Source of the DNA: a virus
Reading direction: 5' to 3' (one strand)
DNA: 28,763 bases
IMG/VR virus record: IMGVR_UViG_3300008469_000014
Span: 1 to 28,763 of that record
Part shown: one piece after another, positions 183 to 28,763 of the stretch
Layout of the letters: each line of letters begins with the position of its first letter
How positions within the stretch are numbered: position 1 is the first letter of the stretch
The notes under the pieces: model-generated
Told to the model about the DNA's origin: nothing
The model's database searches: none
What the model saw: the letters and a program-made list of their open reading frames with translations, nothing else
Translations under genes and position numbers: made by a program

Positions 183-2171
183 TTAATTTTCAATACCAGT
201 AGTAGGATATCTTTGAACATCTAAAGTTGTTCTAAATCCTGAAGCATCTAATTTATGAGAAATTTTCTTAATTAAATAATATCCAGATAAATAACTTAAT
301 TCAAGTGATTTATTACTACTTGTATTATATTCATTATAATTTCTATATACATTTAATCTTATATAGTATTGATAAGGTTGTAATTCATTATCAAATAAAT
401 AAAATGGATCACCAAGTATCTCTACACTACCAAAAAATATTCCTGCGTTCATGTTTTGAATTACTTTAGATGCAAGTAAATTAGCACTAGAATCGCCATT
501 ATTTTCTTTTACGGTATTAGTAAGTGTAAAATTATTACTTTCTAATAACTTTTTATAAACTTCAGATACATCAGATGGAATTGAACCTTCAACATCATCT
601 GATTTTGATGATGGTGCTGACATCAATACTTTCATTTCCTCATCTTTGATAATTACAGATTGATTTAATTGAATAAAATCTAAACTATTTTTGACATTAA
701 ATCCTGTTACTATTGTTTTAGGAGATTGCATATAATCATACGATCTAACAAAAGCTTGCCCTGTATTATCTAATCGCCTATAGAAAAATCTAATAATTAC
801 AAATGTTTCAGTATTTGCTTTATCCTTTAAATCATAAGTCTGTTCATTTATAGAAAATGTATAAGGTATAGGTTCAAATATAGTTGAATCTACATTTGTA
901 TTTTTATTATTAATAATTGATTTAATTTTTTCTGCATCTGTAATATATTTATTCGTATTTTTATTTCTAAGTATTGGAGGAACTTTACTAACAAAATCTC
1001 TAAGCAATTCTTTTATTGACATAAAATCATTAATTATTTTTCCAGTATTATTCCCATTTTCATCTACTTCGAATTTAGGTTCTCCTCCTAACGATACACT
1101 AATATTTAACCATTTAGAACTTTCCTCTAATTCTTTTCTATCTTTTTCAGATAAACTATCAGGATATGTATCTGATCCATTTTTTACTTCTACAGACCAT
1201 TGAACTGGTAAATCACTTGGTTTCCCGTATTTAATAAAACCATCGCCAGCAGCTTTTGATACAGTATCTGGCAATACTGGTTTTGCTTTTGTTTGTTCTC
1301 CACCAGTTGCTACAGCATCAACAACTTGAACTCTTCCATTTGTTGCATAATATATTTGTGTTGCAATATCTTTAAATAATTTTTGAGGAGTTCCTTTCAT
1401 TAGAGCAAAACGTTTTATAATTTTAGTCTTTTCAAAAAAAGAATTAGAAACTGATATTCCTTTTACATTAACAATTAAACCCTTTTCTGTTAAATTAAAA
1501 GTTGCATCCATCATCATAAAATATAACCAAGGACTTTTTAAATATAAACTATCTTTTTTTAATTTGCTTGTTCTGTCTTTCCATTCAGGAGATGATTTTG
1601 ATACTGGGCTAAAAACATTTTGACCATTATTAGGATCTGAATATCCAAATCTAACTCTAAAGTTTATATTCGATGCAGGATTTGGCATAAATTCTAATAT
1701 AGATTTTGGTGTTGCATCATTTAATTTTTTCATAGCTAATTCATTACCAACTTTAGTGGCTATAACAGATTTAATTATTATATTTTCTAATCTTGATAAA
1801 TCTTTATCATATAAAGATAATTCACAATTTATAACACCTCCATCATCTTCAAGAACAATACTTTCAAAATAATTATCAAATTTTAATGAACTGCTATCTC
1901 CTTGCTTAATAGGAGGAATATATGTATCATTATTTGCTCCTCTAAAAGAAACAGTAGTCCATTCATTATCAACTGCTGGCTCTTGTTCCAATAAATTTGT
2001 TTCAGCTTTTAACAAATTTGTTCTAAATTGAATTTCAACCCAAGGAGTCATAGGAATAATTCCCCTAGACTTTGGATTAGGATTAGACACATCAAGCTTA
2101 AAGATATCTTCTGCCCTTACTATAGTTTTTTTATTTGAACTACTTGTAGTTAAATTTGTTGTTTTTGCCAT
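183..2171 (-). CDS. Large virion protein, probably baseplate hub (gp27/gpD-like)
   Basis: A 662-residue soluble protein with no signal peptide or membrane segment. The ATG at 2171 has an AGAGG ribosome binding site. The N-terminal third contains short beta-rich stretches (LEDDGGVINCELSLYDKDLS, then a FRVRFGYSD segment near residue 170) and a LIVNVKGISVSNSFFEKTK stretch near 235. This pattern of secretion-ring-like barrels resembles tail hub proteins of the gp27/VgrG-N/gpD type, which join the tube to the baseplate. Its length and position among minus-strand virion-type genes fit. The call is by fold-like pattern rather than a diagnostic motif; another baseplate or tail protein of similar size is possible. 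Confidence 0.45.
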   Translation of the reverse strand: MAKTTNLTTSSSNKKTIVRAEDIFKLDVSNPNPKSRGIIPMTPWVEIQFRTNLLKAETNLLEQEPAVDNEWTTVSFRGANNDTYIPPIKQGDSSSLKFDNYFESIVLEDDGGVINCELSLYDKDLSRLENIIIKSVIATKVGNELAMKKLNDATPKSILEFMPNPASNINFRVRFGYSDPNNGQNVFSPVSKSSPEWKDRTSKLKKDSLYLKSPWLYFMMMDATFNLTEKGLIVNVKGISVSNSFFEKTKIIKRFALMKGTPQKLFKDIATQIYYATNGRVQVVDAVATGGEQTKAKPVLPDTVSKAAGDGFIKYGKPSDLPVQWSVEVKNGSDTYPDSLSEKDRKELEESSKWLNISVSLGGEPKFEVDENGNNTGKIINDFMSIKELLRDFVSKVPPILRNKNTNKYITDAEKIKSIINNKNTNVDSTIFEPIPYTFSINEQTYDLKDKANTETFVIIRFFYRRLDNTGQAFVRSYDYMQSPKTIVTGFNVKNSLDFIQLNQSVIIKDEEMKVLMSAPSSKSDDVEGSIPSDVSEVYKKLLESNNFTLTNTVKENNGDSSANLLASKVIQNMNAGIFFGSVEILGDPFYLFDNELQPYQYYIRLNVYRNYNEYNTSSNKSLELSYLSGYYLIKKISHKLDASGFRTTLDVQRYPTTGIEN

Positions 2172-2185
2172 TATATTCCTCTACT

Positions 2186-2196
2186 ATTATCTTTCC
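2186..2196 (-). promoter_or_regulatory. Candidate late-type promoter motif (GGAAAGATAAT)
   Basis: Minus-strand GGAAAGATAAT, 14 nt before the ATG of the hub-like gene at 2171. It is back-to-back with a plus-strand copy at 2200-2211, three bases apart. Confidence 0.4.
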
Positions 2197-2199
2197 TTT

Positions 2200-2211
2200 G
2201 AAAAGGTAAAT
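2200..2211 (+). promoter_or_regulatory. Candidate late-type promoter motif (GAAAAGGTAAAT)
   Basis: Plus-strand GAAAAGGTAAAT, 24 nt before the ATG at 2236, the same spacing as at several other copies in the window. It is the divergent partner of the minus-strand copy at 2186-2196. Confidence 0.35.
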
Positions 2212-2235
2212 ATATACTTTATGTAAGGAATAGAT

Positions 2236-2394
2236 ATGAAATTTAATGAGATAAAGAAATTAGTCGGTAATGTTTCAACAAAAAAAATAAAAGAAATAAT
2301 AAAAAAAATTTCTCCATTAGAATTTAAAAAAGAGATAAATAAAAATGGAACAATTATTGATATTATTAAAAAAAAATTAGGGAGAAGGAGTTAA
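2236..2394 (+). CDS. Small basic protein of unknown function (52 aa)
   Basis: An open frame of 52 codons plus TAA, starting at ATG 2236 with an AAGGA ribosome binding site 6 nt upstream (2225-2229). The product begins MKFNEIKKLVGNVSTKKIKE and ends KKLGRRS. It is lysine-rich, helical and free of cysteines. It stands alone on the plus strand and its 3' end overlaps the 3' end of the convergent gene 2377-2994 by 18 nt. A late-type motif lies just upstream. It could be a small DNA- or RNA-binding protein, but no family is recognised. Confidence 0.5.
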   Translation: MKFNEIKKLVGNVSTKKIKEIIKKISPLEFKKEINKNGTIIDIIKKKLGRRS

Positions 2395-2994
2395 TCCAGT
2401 AGAACTTGTATTGTTAGCTCTTAAACTAGATATTGGTTTAGAGTTTAAAGTTTGATTAATTCTATCAGCTAATTCTGTTCGTGAATAAGCTACTTTAACT
2501 TTTGTAAATCTTAATTCTTTTGGTTCTAATTGTTGATTAAGAAATTGTATATAAGGATCATTATATGGATATACTAATTTATTTAAACTAGTAAATCCAG
2601 CTGAAACCATTTTTGGAGCTGAAATCATAGAAGTATGATATCTTCTATAACAATCACGAACAATACTAGGTCTATTTAATTTTAAAAGTCTATAAAATAA
2701 ATGAGGTTTTAATATTTGATTTGATTTTTTAAGTAAATATATTGTTCTTGCTAACCACTGTTTATCTGCAACTGACATATAATTTAAATTTAATCCATCA
2801 GTATAAAAACCTTTTTTATAAACAAATTGTCTAAATCCAGAATATAAAGTAAAAATTAATGGAGCAGGATCTTTTTTAAAATTAGAATAACTCATTTTAT
2901 AAATGCAACCAAAAATTAAAGCTCTTCCTTGTGTAGCTGTCATAGCAAAACGTCTATTTCGTAATTTATCAATAATCCAACTTATAATTGACAT
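2377..2994 (-). CDS. Conserved phage protein of unknown function (205 aa)
   Basis: A 205-residue basic, aromatic-rich protein. The central part (residues about 30-140) has stretches such as APLIFTLYSGFR, DKQWLARTIYLLKK, LFYRLLKLNRPSIVRDCYRRY and MVSAGFTSLN. I recall this pattern from uncharacterised conserved proteins of other large myophages, but I cannot name a function. The C-terminal 25 residues are Ser/Thr/Pro-rich and probably disordered. The start is translationally coupled to the 58-residue gene upstream (TAATG overlap at 2994-2996). It forms a small operon with the genes at 2994-3170 and 3176-3430. Confidence 0.65.
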   Translation of the reverse strand: MSIISWIIDKLRNRRFAMTATQGRALIFGCIYKMSYSNFKKDPAPLIFTLYSGFRQFVYKKGFYTDGLNLNYMSVADKQWLARTIYLLKKSNQILKPHLFYRLLKLNRPSIVRDCYRRYHTSMISAPKMVSAGFTSLNKLVYPYNDPYIQFLNQQLEPKELRFTKVKVAYSRTELADRINQTLNSKPISSLRANNTSSTGLTPSP

Positions 2995-7945: not shown

Positions 7946-7974
7946 TTGACAAAAAAAGAATAATTTGGTATAAT
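7946..7974 (+). promoter_or_regulatory. Strong sigma-70 promoter for the ssb-uvsX-groES-uvsW operon
   Basis: TTGACA (7946-7951), 17-bp spacer, TATAAT (7969-7974): a perfect consensus. The spacer, AAAAAAGAATAATTTGG, is shared with six other promoters in the window. Transcription should begin near 7981, leaving a leader of about 85 nt before ATG 8066. Confidence 0.9.
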
Positions 7975-21129: not shown

Positions 21130-22665
21130 TTAGCTTACCTTTTTCAAAGTATTATTTAATTTTTCTTTAACTTTATCTTTTGCTTTTTGAATAGCATTTT
21201 GATTTTTAGGTGTCATAATATTTTCAGGTGGCTTAGCTTTTTGTTTAACTGTTGCTTGTTTAAGGGCTTCTTCTTTTTTTCTTTTAGCATTAAAGTTATT
21301 AGATTTTTTTGCTGCTTCAACTTCTTTTTTTATTTTCTCTGCGTTTTTTATTAAACGAATTTGATAACTTCTTTTATCAAATGCTCTTGTATAATCAGCA
21401 TATTTATCTGGAGTATATGTTTTTATTAATTTTTCTTCTGTTGCTCTTTGAATTTTATCTACAACTTTTTTAGCTGTGTTTTTTACTGCTGTTCCGGCTC
21501 TTGATAACTGTTGTCCTTTATCGCTTTCTTTAAATTTTTTAGCAGCATCTTTTATTTTCCCAATAGTTTCTTTAGCTCTTAAACCAGTTCTTTCTAAAGC
21601 ATTTGCATCTCCTTTTACATCAATATTAAGAGTATACTTTTTTGTAAGAACTCCAAGTTCATTGAATTTCATTTTAGCTTTAGATGTTAAACTTCTTTTT
21701 TTAATAGGATCTGATGTTTTTTCCCAAGCATTTTTAAGTTTTTCTATTTCATAATTTATTTTATTAGCTTTAGCAGTATAGTTATTAAGCATGCTGGTTC
21801 TTTTATTTGCCCTTGCTCCACCATTATCTATACTCTTTTTTATAGAAGCTTCTGCTTCTTTTTGAGCTTCTTCACTTTGTTTAATATAATAATAAGGATT
21901 ATTAGGTTTATCAGCATTAACACCTGCTGCTGTTTTACCACCTAAAGAAAGTAAACGATTTGAAACTGCTATTTTGTTTTTTATTTCTGCTGGGGATGCT
22001 GCTTGTGTTTCGTCTGGCTTTTCGTTAGTATCATTTTCAGCAGGCTCTTCGGCCTTTGCAGGCTTTTCAGTTTTTGTAGGAGTTTCATTTTTTGCAGGAG
22101 TTTCAGCCTTTGCAGGAGTTTCAGTTTTTGCAGGTTCATCAGTTTTTGCAGGATTTTCATCTTTTGCAGGCTCTTCAGTTTTTGCAGGAGTTTCAGTTTT
22201 TGCAGGAGCTTCAGTTTTTGCAGGCTCTTCAGTTTTTGCAGGAGCTTCAGCTTTTAATTTAGAAACTTGTTTAACTGCTAATTTTTTTAATGTAGGTTTA
22301 AAAGGGGATTTTGTAAAGTTTTTTTCTCCTTCTTCTGGAACTATATTATATTTTTTTAAAACATTAGTTTCTGGATTAGATCTTTTACCAGTTGTTAAAA
22401 TATCTAATGCTAAAACTATATCTTTAAAACCAGGATTTTTATCAATATCAGCTTGAGTTAAAGATTTATCTTTTGTTTTACCATAGATTTCTTCTACATA
22501 ATCTTTATTAGCCTTTTTTAAAGTTTCTAAAGCTTCTTTTCTTACTAAAGGATCTTTTCTGTATTTTTTTGGGTCTTTAGATTTTTTTATAGATGAAGCT
22601 AAAGTTTCTACTTCAAGGGCTTCTTTTAATTCTTTATCTTTAATATAATCTTTAAAGGATTTCAT
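21130..22665 (-). CDS. Putative internal head protein with PAKTE hexapeptide repeats (511 aa)
   Basis: A 511-residue highly charged, helical protein. The N-terminus MKSFKDYIKDKELKEA resembles the capsid targeting sequence of T4 internal proteins (such as MKTYQEFIAE-A in IPIII). L13-K14-E15/A16 fits the T4 prohead protease rule (L/I)xE/(A/G/S). Residues 142-213 are twelve hexapeptides of the type PAKTEx, likely a flexible linker. The remainder is lysine-rich and helical (VDKIQRATEEKLIK and similar), with no catalytic motif. GGAG precedes ATG 22665. It is a monocistronic unit with a late-type motif 24 nt upstream and a strong terminator. If packaged, it would be injected with the DNA. The head assignment is inferred. 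Confidence 0.6.
   Translation of the reverse strand: MKSFKDYIKDKELKEALEVETLASSIKKSKDPKKYRKDPLVRKEALETLKKANKDYVEEIYGKTKDKSLTQADIDKNPGFKDIVLALDILTTGKRSNPETNVLKKYNIVPEEGEKNFTKSPFKPTLKKLAVKQVSKLKAEAPAKTEEPAKTEAPAKTETPAKTEEPAKDENPAKTDEPAKTETPAKAETPAKNETPTKTEKPAKAEEPAENDTNEKPDETQAASPAEIKNKIAVSNRLLSLGGKTAAGVNADKPNNPYYYIKQSEEAQKEAEASIKKSIDNGGARANKRTSMLNNYTAKANKINYEIEKLKNAWEKTSDPIKKRSLTSKAKMKFNELGVLTKKYTLNIDVKGDANALERTGLRAKETIGKIKDAAKKFKESDKGQQLSRAGTAVKNTAKKVVDKIQRATEEKLIKTYTPDKYADYTRAFDKRSYQIRLIKNAEKIKKEVEAAKKSNNFNAKRKKEEALKQATVKQKAKPPENIMTPKNQNAIQKAKDKVKEKLNNTLKKVS
22027..22242 (-). repeat. 18-bp tandem coding repeat (about 12 units, PAKTEx)
   Basis: Twelve imperfect 18-bp units encode PAKTEE, PAKTEA, PAKTET, PAKDEN, PAKTDE, PAKAET, PAKNET, PTKTEK and similar hexapeptides. 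The units differ by single substitutions and are in frame, so the number of copies can change by slippage or recombination without breaking the gene. Confidence 0.9.
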
Positions 22666-22689
22666 TTAATTCTCCGTTGCTGCTTGTTT

Positions 22690-22703
22690 ATTTTACCTTT
22701 ACA
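22690..22703 (-). promoter_or_regulatory. Candidate late-type promoter motif (TGTAAAGGTAAAAT)
   Basis: A minus-strand copy of the recurring motif with one extra A, 24 nt before the ATG of the putative head protein. It is divergent from the polymerase promoter at 22738-22766. Confidence 0.45.
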
Positions 22704-22737
22704 AAATTAAGATGGTAATAAATCTTTTATTTAATTC

Positions 22738-22766
22738 TTGACAAAAAAAGAATAATTTGTTATAAT
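22738..22766 (+). promoter_or_regulatory. Strong sigma-70 promoter for dnaE-N
   Basis: TTGACA (22738-22743), 17-bp spacer, TATAAT (22761-22766), a member of the seven-copy family. The ATG at 22783 is only 16 nt after the -10 box, so the leader is about 10 nt and starts at the AAGGAG ribosome binding site. Confidence 0.9.
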
Positions 22767-22782
22767 TATTTAAGGAGTAAAA

Positions 22783-24072
22783 ATGAGCTATTCTCAATTG
22801 CATCTTCATACACATATCGGTTCTCAGCTTGATGGAGTTGGAACACCAGAACAATATGCTAAATTAGCAAAAGAAATGGGGCATCCAGCATTAGCTATTA
22901 CTGACCATGGAAAAATGAATGGGCATTATGAACATTATTTAGCATGTAAAAAATATGGAATAAAACCTATATTTGGAGTAGAGGCTTATGTTGAATTTGA
23001 GCTTGAACGATATGAAGAAATAAAAGGTAAACAAAAGCGTCAAAGAAATAAGAACATGCATTTAATTCTTTTAGCTAAAAATGAAATAGGTTATAAAAAT
23101 TTATTAAAATTAAATTATCAATCTAATGCTGATGAAAAGCATTTTTATTATAAAAATCATATTTTACTTAATGATTTATTTAAGAATAAAGAAGGTATAA
23201 TCGTAGGCACTGCCTGTATGGGCTCTCCATTTGCAAAATTATATAGAGAAGAAGGCCCTGAAAAATCTGAAAAATTATTTAAGATTTTTGTTGATAAATT
23301 CGGTGATGATTTTTATACAGAAATACAAATGAATGAAATTACTCACAAAATAGATAATTTTGAAAAAGGACAAATTTCTGTAAATGAATGGATGATGAAA
23401 TTAGCTAATAAATACAATGTTCCTATCATATTAACAGGAGATGTTCATTATGCTAAACCAGGATTAGATAAAATTCAAACACTTGCAATTGCAATTAGTC
23501 GTGGAGTCACATTAGATGAATTAGATTGGGAATTAGAAGGAAAAAGTTTGTTTTATATGGATATTCCTGATTTTAAGGAATTTAATAAGAAATGGGGATA
23601 TGAATATACAGATGAGCAGATTGAAGAATGGTGCGATAACTCTCAAATAATTGCTGATAAATGCAATTATGAATTTAAAGAAAGAAATAGATTAATACTT
23701 CCATCACTTACAGATAATGATGATGCTTTATTAGTTAAAGAAAGTAAAAAAGGATTAGTTAAGAAACTTAATGTTGAAAGTTGGGATGAAGTTCCTATTA
23801 AATATAAAAAAAGATTAGCAAAAGAAATAGAAATATTATTAAGAAAAGGTTTTGCTTCTTATATTATGATATTATGGGATGTATTTAATTTTGCTAAAAA
23901 AGAAGAAATAATGAGAGGGCCTGCTAGAGGGAGCGGTGGTGGCTCTTTAACTCTTTATTCTTTAGATATAACTACATTAGATCCTATTAAATATGGATTA
24001 ATTTTCGAGCGTTTCTTAAGTAATGAAAGAAGTGCTGATGTAGTATATGATTATTTCAATGAAGCAGTATAA
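22783..24072 (+). CDS. DNA polymerase III alpha, N-terminal piece: PHP domain and start of palm
   Basis: A 429-residue protein matching the first third of bacterial DnaE. The PHP metal-binding domain is well preserved: HLHTH (residues 7-11), ITDHG with D41 and H42, GVEAYV with E67, and TGDVHY near residue 220. Such intact PHP sites have proofreading nuclease activity in some DnaE enzymes. The polymerase part ends with GPARGSGGGSLTLYSL and LIFERFLSNER, which in DnaE directly precedes the first catalytic motif PDxDxDF. Here it is followed by a short divergent tail, SADVVYDYFNEAV, then stop. The catalytic aspartates lie in the separate gene at 25638. The start at ATG 22783 has AAGGAG. It needs its partners to polymerise. 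Confidence 0.9.
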   Translation: MSYSQLHLHTHIGSQLDGVGTPEQYAKLAKEMGHPALAITDHGKMNGHYEHYLACKKYGIKPIFGVEAYVEFELERYEEIKGKQKRQRNKNMHLILLAKNEIGYKNLLKLNYQSNADEKHFYYKNHILLNDLFKNKEGIIVGTACMGSPFAKLYREEGPEKSEKLFKIFVDKFGDDFYTEIQMNEITHKIDNFEKGQISVNEWMMKLANKYNVPIILTGDVHYAKPGLDKIQTLAIAISRGVTLDELDWELEGKSLFYMDIPDFKEFNKKWGYEYTDEQIEEWCDNSQIIADKCNYEFKERNRLILPSLTDNDDALLVKESKKGLVKKLNVESWDEVPIKYKKRLAKEIEILLRKGFASYIMILWDVFNFAKKEEIMRGPARGSGGGSLTLYSLDITTLDPIKYGLIFERFLSNERSADVVYDYFNEAV

Positions 24073-24082
24073 AGGAGATAAA

Positions 24083-24244
24083 ATGGAAAAAGAATTAGAA
24101 GTTAAATGTAAAGTGTGTGGAGAAACTTTTAGAACAAGATTTGATATAAAAGAATTAGATGATAAAATTCCAATGGCTTTTTGTCCAAATTGTCAAAAGA
24201 TGGTAGAAGTTCTTTCAAGAGAGTTTGCACAATATTCTACTTGA
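24083..24244 (+). CDS. Small zinc-ribbon protein (53 aa)
   Basis: A 53-residue protein with CKVC and CPNC pairs about 24 residues apart, a compact zinc ribbon. It begins at ATG 24083 with AAAGGAG, 10 nt after dnaE-N. An upstream in-frame ATG at 24047 overlaps dnaE-N and has no better ribosome binding site. Its TGA stop is part of the -35 box of the next promoter (CTTGACA). It is the first gene lying between pieces of the polymerase. Small zinc ribbons often bind nucleic acids or proteins, but no specific role can be assigned. Confidence 0.7.
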   Translation: MEKELEVKCKVCGETFRTRFDIKELDDKIPMAFCPNCQKMVEVLSREFAQYST

Positions 24245-24269
24245 CATAAAAAGAATAATTTGTTATAAT
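24241..24269 (+). promoter_or_regulatory. Strong sigma-70 promoter for the Pif1-like helicase
   Basis: TTGACA (24241-24246), 17-bp spacer, TATAAT (24264-24269). Only 5 nt separate the -10 from ATG 24275, so transcription should begin at or next to the start codon and the mRNA should be leaderless. The TGA of the preceding gene lies within TTGACA. Confidence 0.9.
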
Positions 24270-24274
24270 TAATT

Positions 24275-25594
24275 ATGGATAAAACAACAATGGATAAAAC
24301 AACAAAAGATGATCTTAAAATAATTATTGATAAATTTATGAAAGACTTTGATAGCTTAGGCTATGAAGTAAACAAAGAATTAAAAAAAGCAATATTACTA
24401 GCAGAATTTTCAGAAAAGAATATAATAGTATCTGGAAGCGCAGGAACTGGCAAATCAACGTTTATAGATTTATTTAAAGCTAATACTAAAAAAAATGTTG
24501 TAGTTCTTGCTCCAACTGGAGTGGCTGCTGTTAATGTTGGTGGTGTTACAATTCATTCCTTCTTTCGATTAGCTTTTGGTATAATTAATAAATATGCTAT
24601 AATCTATTCAAATCGAGAAATAGTAAATAATATAGATGTAATTGTTATAGATGAAATTTCTATGGTTAGAGTAGATTTAATGGATGCAATTGATTATCAA
24701 TTAAGAGCATTAACAGGAAACTCAAATAAACCTTTTGGTGGTATAAAAATTGTCGCAGTTGGCGACTTATTTCAATTACCACCTATTGTTCAAAGAGGTA
24801 GCCCTGATGAAAGATATATAAGAGATACTTTTTATTCTCCTTGGTTCTTTAGTGCTCCTGAGATTGGAGATTTCACAGTTGTAGAATTAAATAAAATATA
24901 TAGGCAGCATGATGAAAAATTTACAAGTGTTCTTAATAAAATAAGAATAGGGAAACAAAGTTGGGATGACTTAAAATATATTAATTCAAGAGTAGTAAAA
25001 GAAGAAGAACTTGGAGATGGATATATTTATTTATCCACAATTAATAAAACTGCTGACAAAATAAATAAAGAAAAACTTGCTGAAATAAATGAACCTTCAA
25101 AACATTACTATTCATCTATTACTGGAGATTTTCCATTTAATTCATATCCAGCACCTGCTGATTTAGAATTAAAAATTGGAGCTCAGGTTATGATATTAAG
25201 AAATGGTCCTAATTGGTATAATGGACAAATTGGGACTATTGTAAAATTAACAGATTATTCAATTTCAGTAATGCTTGACAATATAGTATATGAAGTATCT
25301 AAAGAAAAATGGATTAATGGGGATTATGAATTAAAGAATGGAAAAGTTCAAATAGTTGAAAAAGGAACATTTTTTCAATATCCATTAAAACTTGCATATG
25401 CAATAACAATTCATAAATCGCAAAGCAAAACATATGATAAAGTTTATATAGATTTAGGAAATGGTGCATTTAGTGCTGGTCAAACATATGTTGCATTATC
25501 AAGATGTAAAACTCTTGAAGGTATTGGATTAAAATATAAAATTGAAAAAAGAGATATAATAGTAGATAAAGTTCTACAAGAAAATTTTACTTGA
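24275..25594 (+). CDS. SF1B helicase, Pif1/Dda-like
   Basis: A 439-residue 5'-to-3' DNA helicase. Motif I VSGSAGTGKST is near residues 53-61, followed by APTGVAAVNVGGVTIHSFF (motif Ia), motif II VIDEIS near 130, motif III AVGDLFQLPP near 160, and C-terminal motifs TIHKSQSKT and YVALSRCKTLEG. The QLPP and HKSQ patterns place it in the Pif1/RecD2/Dda group. T4 Dda, a helicase that helps start replication and remove bound proteins, has the same length. No Shine-Dalgarno is present. The first 15 bases (ATGGATAAAACAACA) are duplicated, so a second in-frame ATG lies at 24290. The TGA stop is part of the next promoter. It separates dnaE-N from dnaE-M. Confidence 0.9.
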   Translation: MDKTTMDKTTKDDLKIIIDKFMKDFDSLGYEVNKELKKAILLAEFSEKNIIVSGSAGTGKSTFIDLFKANTKKNVVVLAPTGVAAVNVGGVTIHSFFRLAFGIINKYAIIYSNREIVNNIDVIVIDEISMVRVDLMDAIDYQLRALTGNSNKPFGGIKIVAVGDLFQLPPIVQRGSPDERYIRDTFYSPWFFSAPEIGDFTVVELNKIYRQHDEKFTSVLNKIRIGKQSWDDLKYINSRVVKEEELGDGYIYLSTINKTADKINKEKLAEINEPSKHYYSSITGDFPFNSYPAPADLELKIGAQVMILRNGPNWYNGQIGTIVKLTDYSISVMLDNIVYEVSKEKWINGDYELKNGKVQIVEKGTFFQYPLKLAYAITIHKSQSKTYDKVYIDLGNGAFSAGQTYVALSRCKTLEGIGLKYKIEKRDIIVDKVLQENFT

Positions 25595-25619
25595 CAAAAA
25601 AAGAATAATATTGTATAAT
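25591..25619 (+). promoter_or_regulatory. Strong sigma-70 promoter for dnaE-M
   Basis: TTGACA (25591-25596), 17-bp spacer, TATAAT (25614-25619). The helicase stop codon TGA (25592-25594) lies in the -35 box. ATG 25638 follows after a short leader with AAAGAG. Confidence 0.9.
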
Positions 25620-25637
25620 ATATAAAGAGATATAAAA

Positions 25638-26525
25638 ATGGAAGAAAAAATAACATATAAAATGCTTAAAGAATTATGTGATAAAAAAATAATGGAGTTA
25701 TATCCAAATAACACAGAACTTCATAAAGCATATAAAAAAGAAATTAAAGCTGCTGAAAGATTTTATAAAGCAGGTAGAAATCTTTATGATGAATTATGTT
25801 ATAGTGGTAAAAAAATAGATACAAGATATGCAATTCCGTATATATTAGAATTAACAAAAGAGTTTACAGGTGAGCCTCCAGTTTATATTCAAGTAAGAGG
25901 AGGGGATTCAGGTGCTATAGATGTAGATAGTGATTTTGCCCCTGCTGGAAGAGAAAAAATATATAATTATTTAAAAGAAAAATATGGAGATGAAAGAGTT
26001 TTGCATGTTGGAACTTTTTCAACTCTTGGGCCTGCATCAGCAGCAAAAGATGTTTTACGTGCTAATGGAATTGATTTTGGTAAATCAAATAAATTTACAA
26101 AAGCTTTAGAAAAGATGGAAACTTGGGAAGAAAACCTTCAAAGAATAAAAGGAGAAGATCCTGATAATTGGAAATTTTATTTAAAAAATAAAGAAATCCT
26201 TGATGATGTTCCACATTTAATTGGAAAAATTAGACAAAGTGGAAAACATGCTGGAGGATTTGTAGTTAGTGATAAAGAGATTTATAATTATATTCCTGTA
26301 GATAGAGCTAATGGGGAAGTTGTAACAGCATATCCAGAAAGCGGAGGAAATTCTGTTTTAGATACAATAGGAATAATTAAATATGATATTCTTGGTATAT
26401 CTATTCTTGATGTTATGACTGAAGCAATTGAAATGATTGATGAAGATATATATGAAATAGAAGAAGATGGTATTAAAAAAATGGTTCCAGAATCTTATAT
26501 TGACAAAGAAATAAAGGAGATATAA
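25638..26525 (+). CDS. DNA polymerase III alpha, middle piece: catalytic palm
   Basis: A 295-residue protein covering the catalytic palm of DnaE. It contains IDVDSDF (D95, D97, D99), corresponding to the PDFDVDF motif with catalytic D401 and D403 of E. coli DnaE, then GDERVLHVGTFSTLGPASAA, SGKHAGGFVV at 201-210, and IIKYDILG with D250, corresponding to D555. All three catalytic aspartates are therefore on this one polypeptide. The first 90 residues (MEEKITYKMLKELCDKKIME onward) have no counterpart at this place in ordinary DnaE, where PDFDVDF directly follows FERFLNPER. They may be an assembly domain. It is followed immediately by the gene at 26526. Confidence 0.85.
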   Translation: MEEKITYKMLKELCDKKIMELYPNNTELHKAYKKEIKAAERFYKAGRNLYDELCYSGKKIDTRYAIPYILELTKEFTGEPPVYIQVRGGDSGAIDVDSDFAPAGREKIYNYLKEKYGDERVLHVGTFSTLGPASAAKDVLRANGIDFGKSNKFTKALEKMETWEENLQRIKGEDPDNWKFYLKNKEILDDVPHLIGKIRQSGKHAGGFVVSDKEIYNYIPVDRANGEVVTAYPESGGNSVLDTIGIIKYDILGISILDVMTEAIEMIDEDIYEIEEDGIKKMVPESYIDKEIKEI

Positions 26526-26744
26526 ATGGCAATAAAAAATAAAGAAGTAATGCAATTAATAAATGTAAAAACTAAAGAAATGGAAAAACATCTTAATATA
26601 ATAGAAGAGGAAGTTCAAAAAGGAGATGAAAAATTCAATAGAGCAGTTGTAGCTATTGCTGTAGGAAAAGTAATGAAGTTACATCAAGATATAGCATATT
26701 TTTTAGGTGTTTTTGATGATAACCCAAAATATGAAGGAAACTAA
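26526..26744 (+). CDS. Small helical protein of unknown function (72 aa)
   Basis: A 72-residue helical protein starting MAIKNKEVMQLINVKTKEME. Its ATG directly follows the dnaE-M stop codon, with AAGGAG (26515-26520) lying inside the end of dnaE-M, so the two are translationally coupled. There is no motif. It is the first of three small genes between dnaE-M and dnaE-C. It may be an assembly or regulatory partner of the polymerase, but this is position-based inference only. Confidence 0.6.
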   Translation: MAIKNKEVMQLINVKTKEMEKHLNIIEEEVQKGDEKFNRAVVAIAVGKVMKLHQDIAYFLGVFDDNPKYEGN

Positions 26745-26799
26745 TGAAAGACTTATCTTTATAGATAGTATTTATAAAAATAATAAAAAGGCTAAAAAT

Positions 26800-26895
26800 A
26801 TGAGAAAAATAATAATAAGCTTATCAGAAGACGAAAGTGATTTTAATAGTAAATTTGTTAAGCATCTTATAAGATATGAATTAGGTAAAAAATAA
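26800..26895 (+). CDS. Very small protein of unknown function (31 aa), uncertain start
   Basis: A 31-codon frame from ATG 26800 (MRKIIISLSEDESDFNSKFV), with AAAAGG 8 nt upstream, ending in TAA directly before the ATG of the sigma-like gene. The frame is open further upstream to GTG 26707, with ATGs at 26716 and 26731 that overlap or follow the preceding gene, so the protein may be longer (up to 62 residues). Close packing with the next gene supports translation, but the start is unsure. Confidence 0.4.
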   Translation: MRKIIISLSEDESDFNSKFVKHLIRYELGKK

Positions 26896-27282
26896 ATGTT
26901 AGATATAAATAAAGAAATATTAAACGAAAAATATAATGCTGGGGATATGGATTATTTTTTTAATGATGCAAGAAAGATAACTGATTTTATTTTAACGAAA
27001 AATTATCAAGTATATGATAATGAAAAACGTTCTGACATGACGCAAGAATGTCTTGAAAATTTATGGAAAAAAGTTATTCAAGGAAAAGTTGATGGTTCTA
27101 AAAATTTAATGAGTTTCATATGGGCTAATTCTAATTTTAGAATAAAAGAAATATTCAGGAAAGAAAATAACAGAAATAGAATAGCTCCATTTATTTCATA
27201 TGATAATGAAGAACTTGAATTTTTAAAAGGGATTGATAGCAGTAAATATGCTCAAGCTGAAATAGATAAAATTTTTGCTTGA
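26896..27282 (+). CDS. Sigma-70 region 2-like protein, candidate late sigma factor (gp55-like)
   Basis: A 128-residue protein with a pattern resembling sigma region 2 as in T4 gp55. The segment from about residue 45, KRSDMTQECLENLWKKVIQG, followed by KNLMSFIWANSNFRIKEIF and a basic RKENNRNR stretch, mirrors the 'tqe-lenlwk...y...i...f...rk' layout of gp55 and small sigma factors, where this part contacts RNA polymerase and the -10 DNA. T4 gp55 directs late transcription. The ATG follows the previous stop directly. The ribosome binding site is weak. The TGA stop is in the -35 box of the next promoter, giving a C-terminus ...DKIFA that may have lost a former clamp-binding tail. The similarity is faint and I recognise it by pattern only. 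Confidence 0.45.
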   Translation: MLDINKEILNEKYNAGDMDYFFNDARKITDFILTKNYQVYDNEKRSDMTQECLENLWKKVIQGKVDGSKNLMSFIWANSNFRIKEIFRKENNRNRIAPFISYDNEELEFLKGIDSSKYAQAEIDKIFA

Positions 27283-27307
27283 CACAAAAAGAATAATTTG
27301 TTATAAT
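27279..27307 (+). promoter_or_regulatory. Strong sigma-70 promoter for dnaE-C
   Basis: TTGACA (27279-27284), 17-bp spacer, TATAAT (27302-27307), with ATG 27313 only 5 nt after the -10. The stretch from the -35 to the ATG differs at one base from the helicase promoter at 24241. The upstream gene's TGA is in the -35 box. The transcript should be leaderless. Confidence 0.9.
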
Positions 27308-27312
27308 TAATT

Positions 27313-28763
27313 ATGAAAATAATAAGAAAAGTAACAAAGCACGAACTAAAAAATCATTTATATAATTTAAATATAAATGATTCAAATTTATATAAAGAAG
27401 CTAATAATCCACATATGTTAGGAATATTTCAGTTAAATGGAGCATTAGCACATGAAATAATTAAAAAAATAAAGCCTAAAAACTTTGAAGAGATAAATGC
27501 TGTATCTGCATTTGCTAGGCCAGGAACATCAAGTTTCGTAGAGCAATATGTTGAAAATAGAGAAAAAGGTAAATCTCCTTATCCAGATCAAGTTAAAGAT
27601 TTATTAAAAGAAACCCAATCAATAGTTTTATATCAAGAACAAGCTATGTCTATTTTTAATAAAATAGGTGGATTTACATTAGAAGAAACTGATGCAATTC
27701 GTGGTTTGATGAAAAAACTTGGAAAGGCAGATAAGAAGAAAGCAGATTTAGATAAATGGGATAAAGTAATTGAAAAATTTATTGCTGGCGCTCAAGAAAA
27801 TGGTATTTCTCCAAGAGATGCAAAGCTTGTTGCTGCTGATATGCTTAAAATGAGCAGCTATTCATTTAATAAATCACATTCTACAGCATATGCTTATATT
27901 GCAGCACAAACATTATATTTATCATATTACTTTAGGAAATATTTTTATGCATCAGTTCTTCATTATGAAGTTGGAAGAGATAAATATCTTCTTGAAAGAT
28001 TGAAATCTGTAAAAGCGCAAGGATTTAATATATTACCTCCAGATGTAAATAAATCTAAAGTTAGTTTATCTCCAGTTAAAGAGAGTGAAAAAGCAATAAT
28101 ATTTGGATTATTTGATGTTAAAGGAATTGGAGAAAAACCAGCAACTACTATAGTGTCTTTACAACCATTTAAAAGTTTTATGGATTTTATATTAAAAACT
28201 CAAGGAATGAGAATTTCAGCAATTGTTATTAAAGCATTAATAAGTATTGGTGCTTTTGATGAAATTTATAAATATGATAGAAAGAGATTACTTAATACCT
28301 TTAATATTTATTGGAAAAATAAAAAGACAATAAAAGTTCCAGAAAAATTAAAAGCAATTTGGGCAGAAGCAGAAAAAGAAACTGCAAAAACTACTCCTGA
28401 AATAACATATGATGAGCTAAGAGAATTTGAAAGAAAGTATTTAGGATTTAACTTTTTTGTTAATCCATTTACAGATAAATTTTTAGAAGCTGTTGATTTA
28501 ATGGAGAAAAAAGGAATTATATATTCTTCTTTTGATAAAGTTAAAAGAAGCTCTGCTAAAGTTCCAATAATAATAAATAAAATAAAAACTCTTAATGATA
28601 AAAATAAAAAAGAGATGGCATTTCTTGATATTGAAGATAAAGCAGGAGATGAAATTAGTGTGCCTATATTTCAAAGTTTTTGGAAAATATTAAAGAATAG
28701 ATTTGTTGAAGGTAAAATTCATATGATAAATTTATATCTTGATGATGACCAAATTATGTTTGG
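27313..28763 (+). CDS. DNA polymerase III alpha, C-terminal piece (fingers and beyond), partial
   Basis: The frame starts at ATG 27313 and is open to the right edge (483 codons visible). It matches DnaE after the third catalytic aspartate: NPHMLGIFQLNG (DnaE GVFQLES), INAVSAFARPG (DnaE IALVALFRPG), SIVLYQEQAMSI (DnaE GIILYQEQVMQI), SSYSFNKSHSTAYAYIAAQT (DnaE [20 protein letters not shown]), NILPPDVN, and IFGLFDVKGIGEKPAT (the helix-hairpin-helix approach). A tail region with LGFNFFVNPF follows. These are the finger domain, primer contacts and the start of the C-terminal domains. There is no Shine-Dalgarno and a leaderless start is expected. The C-terminus, where clamp binding is expected, lies outside the window. 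Confidence 0.9.
   Translation, partial: MKIIRKVTKHELKNHLYNLNINDSNLYKEANNPHMLGIFQLNGALAHEIIKKIKPKNFEEINAVSAFARPGTSSFVEQYVENREKGKSPYPDQVKDLLKETQSIVLYQEQAMSIFNKIGGFTLEETDAIRGLMKKLGKADKKKADLDKWDKVIEKFIAGAQENGISPRDAKLVAADMLKMSSYSFNKSHSTAYAYIAAQTLYLSYYFRKYFYASVLHYEVGRDKYLLERLKSVKAQGFNILPPDVNKSKVSLSPVKESEKAIIFGLFDVKGIGEKPATTIVSLQPFKSFMDFILKTQGMRISAIVIKALISIGAFDEIYKYDRKRLLNTFNIYWKNKKTIKVPEKLKAIWAEAEKETAKTTPEITYDELREFERKYLGFNFFVNPFTDKFLEAVDLMEKKGIIYSSFDKVKRSSAKVPIIINKIKTLNDKNKKEMAFLDIEDKAGDEISVPIFQSFWKILKNRFVEGKIHMINLYLDDDQIMF

Follow-up and report, generated by a model that had tools for sequence, protein, structure and literature searches.

DnaE, the alpha subunit of DNA polymerase III (PolIII alpha), is encoded in cyanobacteria by two genes, the products of which are joined by a split intein. 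The present analysis concerns a DnaE divided over three genes on a virus contig, IMG/VR record IMGVR_UViG_3300008469_000014, the entire 28,763 nt of which are referred to here as the window. The three frames, all on the plus strand, are designated piece A (22783-24072, 429 residues), piece B (25638-26525, 295 residues) and piece C (27313-28763, truncated by the record end); like the cyanobacterial enzyme this DnaE is a multi-gene product, whereas the window pieces are without an intein domain. As judged from sequence, A, B and C quite probably form a non-covalent three-subunit C-family replicase with a PHP nuclease domain.

The closest described system is found in the T4-like jumbo phages of group 2.2, for which the relevant passages of Iyer et al. 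(2021, PMC7824862) present a two-part minimal PolIII alpha, with separate nucleoside triphosphate (NTP)-binding and Mg/template-binding proteins and a proposed reconstitution of the enzyme. Compared by description only, it resembles the DnaE of the window in being C-family, in belonging to T4-like phages and in the cut at the NTP/Mg boundary. According to the same passages it comprises two parts and no other PolIII domains, its genes lie far apart and a family B polymerase is present, whereas the enzyme of the window and its relatives is in three parts that include PHP and C-terminal domains, its genes share a neighbourhood, and no other polymerase was found in the 14 records searched. Essential enzymes of T4-related phages in reassembling pieces are known also from the Aeromonas phages 25 and 44RR, in which gene 43 (family B) is split and 43A and 43B co-purify as active protein, and from phage Aeh1, the split NrdA of which is functional; these are other enzymes, in two pieces, with a homing endonuclease or an untranslated spacer at the break, as reported in the pertinent part of PMC2988022. 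Many genes of gut jumbo phages contain introns, and their DNA polymerase genes are frequently split by endonucleases lying in between (PMC12363816).

The search of phage genomes for the same split points, which the initial annotation of the window had proposed, detected them in clade contigs described below, in Rossellomorea phage phiT1, in Bacillus phage G and in a further IMG/VR locus (L043). In phiT1 (gp20/gp18; PV767480, locus L061, 2989-6271) DnaE is cut past the D555-like motif, in the B/C region, with a 49-residue open reading frame (ORF) between the parts; it differs from the window in being two-part, with the A and B portions on a single chain, and in lacking an extra lobe. L043 (3300010885_055964) is cut at the A/B point and its second protein begins with an extra lobe of ~109 residues, the difference being again the number of parts (A, and B with C); its record (G010) also carries a second DnaE-like frame (588 residues; 1919-2560, minus strand). 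In phage G (JN638751; locus L068, 239245-250008) DnaE extends over gp329, gp331 and gp339, annotated as separate coding sequences, with breaks before the DxD strand (DIDIDF) and before VKFD. These interruptions are likely introns, since gp331 is entered by in-frame exon sequence that lacks a start codon (DIDIDFCIKNRGRV-MKYIM) and is separated from gp329 by gp330, annotated as a homing endonuclease; no Rfam intron was detected in this stretch, and gp329 appears by eye to contain an intein. The proposal that the cut points of the window are unlike anything known was not supported in view of the two-part jumbo-phage enzyme, phiT1 and phage G. The break points are thus less singular than first claimed, split polymerases being already known, and the notable properties are the three parts, the deep conservation, a natural re-fusion and the possible origin from a duplicated segment. 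No three-part DnaE was found in titles or abstract openings among the matches listed in the open literature.

C-family content of the three frames

Mapping on Pfam, PHROGs and E. coli DnaE bore out that the three frames represent consecutive parts of one DnaE. Piece A comprises the PHP domain (PF02811, 1.7e-34) and the first part of the palm with the RGS residues, matching positions 3-99 of the 260 positions of PF07733; the match to this family resumes on piece B (positions 103-260), which thereby holds the catalytic strand and the remainder of PF07733; and piece C carries the finger domain PF17657 (2.9e-31), HHH_6 (PF14579, 2.8e-17) and the C-terminal part. On the 1190 positions of phrog_405 (DNA polymerase), A corresponds to 42-440, B to 444-621 and C to 614-1054, and on E. 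coli DnaE A covers 4-413, B extends to 599 and C covers 569-1066. The frame of piece C (27313-28761, 483 residues) is open at the record end and ~22 C-terminal residues short compared with L003, because the contig ends there.

The equivalents of E. coli R362, G363 and S364 lie on piece A (R382-S384 of A), and those of D401, D403, K553 and D555 are all on piece B as D95, D97, K248 and D250 (numbering counted by hand), the codons of D95 to D97 in IDVDSDF being at 25920-25928. The catalytic triad is therefore wholly on the middle piece, as initially described, with the addition that the triphosphate-binding GS motif is on A and the fingers are on C. The description of B as cut just before the catalytic strand did not hold: B starts 94 residues upstream of it with an extra conserved segment, and piece C likewise starts 36 residues upstream of GIFQLNG. 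Nine of nine residues of the PHP metal-binding signature HHDHEH[C/H]DH, taken from the passage of PMC12926913 that gives it, were kept, as HHDHEHCDH, in 10/10 clade A pieces examined, for which reason A probably proofreads. The assembled enzyme would have both polymerase and proofreading activity. The PHP domain, GS motif, three aspartates and a lysine, finger and HHH of a C-family DnaE were thus found, but not the single chain, which is usual although not strictly defining, since the three frames have other genes between them.

In the proposed enzyme the three subunits would be transcribed and translated separately and then assemble non-covalently. The PHP domain and the GS motif that binds the triphosphate would come from A, the three aspartates that bind the metals from B, and the fingers and the C-terminal part that handles the template from C. 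As the parts of the active site are spread over three chains, an active site would exist only in the complex. Such an enzyme would be a natural bacterial-family replicase of three subunits, with nucleotide-binding motif, metals and fingers on three chains, in which the split has been stable over deep divergence and for which no back-up enzyme has been found so far. It would offer a system to ask how a cut essential active site persists and how a polymerase can be reconstituted from parts.

Recurrence of the cuts and the role of the split enzyme

Twelve further IMG/VR contigs, originating from eight metagenome ids, constitute together with the window a clade of 13. Both A and B are visible in 11 of them (L004 and L007 end too early) and are separate in nine (the window, L003, L005, L006, L011, L012, L013, L071 and L075), while in L015 and L017, which encode the same protein (identity 100%), they form one frame; B and C are separate in 11/11, L005 showing only the first ~50 residues of C. 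Spacing of A and B varies from a 4-nt overlap in L012, and a B frame that opens 8 nt past the A stop in L075, to the zinc ribbon and helicase genes of the window at the widest end. An assembly artefact or sequencing error that broke an intact gene, suggested by the window being a single metagenomic contig, has a negligible probability, since independent contigs share the split, often with other genes and promoters between A and B. Outside the clade, none of the matches of the three window pieces in the phage collection (50,697 records; E 1e-5) attained 60% identity or, for B, spanned 80% of the piece, and a scan of genome contigs for relatives detected only an ordinary Clostridia DnaE.

In the tree of the A segment the split members form one clade with support 100/99 (48 rows) and 100/100 (31 rows), and the fused L015 is nested within it beside L012 (100/95 in the 48-row tree, only 85/59 in the 31-row tree). 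Since the fused frame sits within the split clade, a fission at the clade base, with A and B rejoined later in a single branch, would be the shorter history. The fused A+B of L015 (715 residues) retains the A tail, a link of ~8 residues and the complete B lobe, which indicates that the two pieces function next to each other. Comparison of its model (mean predicted local distance difference test score (pLDDT) 85.4, predicted template modelling score (pTM) 0.79) with PolIII alpha of E. coli gave Z 39.1 and a root-mean-square deviation (rmsd) of 3.1 Å over 550 residues, 1-694 to 2-593, and A and B are accordingly predicted to build an ordinary PHP and palm. The window B modelled alone (pLDDT 78.2, pTM 0.45) had PolIII alpha as best match (Foldseek E 4e-9).

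Conservation within the clade reaches down to ~42-50% identity. Ratios of non-synonymous to synonymous substitutions (dN/dS; Nei-Gojobori), which are rough at a dS of 0.8-2.1, were 0.09-0.12 for piece A (4 pairs), 0.14-0.15 for the B core (2 pairs) and 0.16 for the compared part of C (1 pair), similar to 0.14-0.18 for the helicase as control (3 pairs), and indicate that selection on the pieces is purifying. Gene decay, or retention of some other role by pieces that no longer cooperate, might be read from the faster evolving B lobe (0.38-0.61, 3 pairs). This is scarcely credible given the low ratios of A, B core and C, on which decay was rejected, the dedicated promoters, the conservation over the clade and the catalytic and PHP residues, which were intact in the members checked, with no changes seen there.

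Each piece was found to have its own promoter, in agreement with the initial annotation. The exact sigma-70-type sequence TTGACA-N17-TATAAT occurs seven times in the window against 0.03 expected (sites starting at 7946, 14713, 16798, 22738, 24241, 25591 and 27279), every time inside a common, near-identical 29-nt element of the TTGACAAAAAAAGAATAATTTGTTATAAT type. Four of the seven are located directly upstream of A (22738-22766), the helicase gene (24241-24269), B (25591-25619) and C (27279-27307), all on the plus strand and those of A, B and C matching at 12 of 12 positions. With a slightly looser pattern, promoters were detected in relatives as well: L003 has them before A, helicase, B and C; the contig shared by L006 and L010 before A, helicase and B (L006) and before C (L010); L004 before A and helicase; and L005 before C and an HNH-like ORF. 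The last base of the -10 box is only 6 nt from the helicase ATG in the window, L003 and L004 (8 in L006) and 6 nt from the ATG of C in the window, L003 and L005 (7 in L010), which suggests that the helicase and C messages may be leaderless.

Assembly of the pieces is the best reading because a deep clade shares the cuts and two of its contigs carry a natural A-B fusion. The earlier proposal of a three-subunit enzyme is hence strengthened by three selected pieces with their own promoters, complete C-family content, recurring cuts and the A-B fusion, while the contact of C is only inferred. Several points weigh against it. C has never been seen fused to B in the clade, and its membership in the complex depends on domain logic and co-conservation, so that a contact of C with A and B, although presumed, is the least firm part of the assembly. 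A and C are 3.2 kb apart in the window with other genes in the interval, the gene order of which differs among contigs, and every clade member found is metagenomic. Moreover, a search within 80 nt did not detect the promoter pattern for A or B in L005 and L013, for B or C in L011, or for A, B or C in L012.

The initial annotation had regarded a second polymerase in the genome as an argument against the three-part enzyme. PF00136 (PolB) and PF00476 (PolA) were absent from 14/14 records (13 of the clade including the window, one of 201 kb, and that of L043), the genome of the window being a fragment, and in the 9 clade records examined for PF07733 its matches were confined to the split locus; because of both results the split enzyme is probably the main replicase of these phages. 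A further point on the opposite side is that completeness is established for none of the records, most of which are far shorter than 100 kb, so that another replicase is possible. The split DnaE could then be an accessory or repair enzyme, with the phage copied by another or by the host polymerase, as may be argued from the T4-like jumbo phages in which a family B enzyme accompanies the published split PolIII alpha (relevant passages of PMC7824862). The clade is T4-like too, as deduced from the T4 capsid family Gp23 (PF07068) in 3/13 records (G001 of 201 kb, G002 and G003) and from the window gene content (UvsX, single-strand-binding protein, helicase), and a family B enzyme would be expected in it. 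Gp23 was also present in the record of L043 and not found in the other ten clade records, window included, which are partial or of uncertain completeness. With no family A or B match even in 201 kb and the main domains including PHP all retained, unlike the published minimal version, we consider an accessory role unlikely.

The N-terminal lobe of piece B

Residues 1-94 of piece B (25638-25919) form an N-terminal lobe that is predicted to be helical to about residue 76, was found in every B piece of the clade and is a candidate for a decayed copy of the N-terminal palm. That the lobe is unique to the split clade was considered and rejected: an insertion of 109-116 residues occupies the same position in 22 of 27 DnaE frames of more than 1,000 residues (the intact phage enzymes of the IMG/VR loci L023, L029, L033-L037, L039-L042, L044-L046, L048, L049, L053-L055, L057, L059 and L060), the remaining five having a spacer of 7-11 residues at that place. 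The 27 frames are those caught by a motif pattern that does not capture every locus, and 19 of the 22 are distinct, the others being near-copies.

Profile comparison related the insertion to the canonical palm segment at E 3e-7, with 0/200 column permutations scoring as high, and lobes and insertions pooled at E 9e-9 (0/200). The lobe of 10 split-clade members matched the insertion at E 4e-4 over 77 columns (0/150), and that of 8 members not significantly. Against canonical palms the lobe reached only E 0.005 over 30 columns (0/150, and 1/150 with own-clade palms added). One permutation run (lobe, insertion plus L043, and lobe-versus-insertion sets) gave null scores of ~134-139, 2/200 of them equal to or above the real one, and a re-run of the lobe set against the palm profile gave one odd null score over 17 columns, taken as a program glitch.

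The A side of the cut provides a related observation. The C-terminal tail of piece A, RSADVVYDYFNEAV, looks by eye like a decayed catalytic strand, and in several members it reads RSPD-L/M-V/I-x-DYF, near the PDxDxDF strand and without its aspartate pair (likewise by eye). Tentatively, and with slightly less than even confidence, we propose that the palm segment ahead of the catalytic strand was tandem-duplicated and that complementary loss was followed by fission between the copies. Copy 1, on A with the tail RSPDxVVDYF, would have retained the GS motif and lost the aspartates, and copy 2, on B, would have retained the aspartates and lost the GS motif; the halves would each fold and jointly build one active site, and the B/C cut would have arisen separately. 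The proposed surviving stages would lead from the canonical L021 through the tandem-duplicated intact enzymes (22 frames) and the three-part window clade to the re-fused L015. If true, this would be a gentle route to splitting an essential gene, with intermediate stages surviving.

A number of results speak against a duplication. Searched with hmmsearch, the split-clade lobe alone matched the palm at background level (best lobe E 0.75), and in the reverse search the best palm row (0.24) ranked behind two background rows. The comparison of the lobe with the palm of its own clade was not significant, 41/150 permutations scoring as high, direct BLAST of lobe and palm found nothing, and the insertion is absent from L021, the closest intact outgroup. 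A single origin of all lobes was neither rejected nor demonstrated (p-value of the approximately unbiased test (p-AU) 0.129).

Predicted structures gave a mixed answer. Residues 1-80 of window B were modelled as five helices with a pLDDT of 81-96 per 10-residue block, residues 84-92 being below 50, and the model of residues 1-84 aligned with 823-913 of PolC, a stretch that lies upstream of the catalytic aspartates, at Z 6.5 and an rmsd of 3.6 Å over 77 residues, where helical matches at such Z may reflect a common arrangement. Lobe and core together aligned with E. coli 284-552 at Z 8.0 and an rmsd of 15.3 Å, which is read as two bodies. Among the PolIII/PolC structure rows the lobe was included in 9/16 and the core only in 7/16.

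Mobile elements and neighbouring genes

Relatives of the window are rich in splicing elements within the same polymerase genes. Group I introns (RF00028) were detected before the IDID codons of B in L003 (10252-10437, 65.1 bits) and L005 (14188-14374, 60.5 bits). Inteins occur across the clade in all three pieces, contiguous in A of L012 and in C of L010 and L015, while the inteins of L006 B and L003 C are split, their two halves flanking an HNH ORF; those of L010 C and L015 C are under the Pfam intein cut-off, the former being over that of NCBIfam. HNH-like ORFs (by eye, without Pfam match) lie upstream of B in L003 and L005. On the evidence of these matches the polymerase gene set of the clade is a hot spot for mobile elements, and DnaE active-site codons appear as sites where introns, inteins and breaks accumulate.

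Such elements, the introns just before the catalytic codons, the split inteins and the interruptions of phage G before DIDIDF and VKFD could mean that an ordinary DnaE chain is made from A, B and C as exons or exteins, through a trans-splicing intron or a split intein. For the window this is very unlikely. Rfam intron families gave no match at E up to 1 over 22600-28763 (short scans detected the L003 and L005 introns, a long gathering scan of seven loci missed both, and introns outside Rfam would escape detection), and no intein family matched any of the three window pieces at E up to 0.001, while the inteins of relatives do score. Furthermore, A and B overlap in L012 and adjoin in L075, and the A tail and the B lobe are conserved as protein and both retained in the natural fusion L015. 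Trans-splicing in the window was rejected on these grounds.

The genes between the pieces agree with those listed initially (a zinc ribbon, a Pif1-like helicase and three small genes), the first of them by weak matches only. A small CxxC/CxxC protein, probably a zinc ribbon on matches under their cut-offs, is encoded at 24047-24244, its start overlapping the end of piece A, and is followed between A and B by a PIF1/Dda-like helicase (24275-25594; PF05970, 6.8e-29; Dda-like phrog_325). The B-C interval contains ORFs of 72 (26526-26744), 62 (26707-26895) and 128 (26896-27282) residues, all of these genes being on the plus strand. The 62-residue ORF had no match in the 12 loci searched. Of the 10 other clade contigs searched, 8 have the 128-residue ORF in their B-C interval, L004 ends before its place and L075 gave no match; the relatives of this ORF in L011 and L012 have weak sigma-factor matches under the cut-off, the window copy has none, and the ORF possibly encodes a small phage sigma factor. 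No endonuclease match was found by Pfam among the window ORFs lying between the pieces.

Elsewhere in the window, matches were obtained for a UvsX-like recombinase, a single-strand-binding protein, a replicative-type helicase and an SbcC/SbcD-like pair, as well as for a tail tube protein, Hsp20 and GroES. Directly before piece A a 511-residue protein with many PAKTE-like repeats is encoded on the minus strand (21130-22665), and relatives carry other lysine- and glutamate-rich proteins at the same place.

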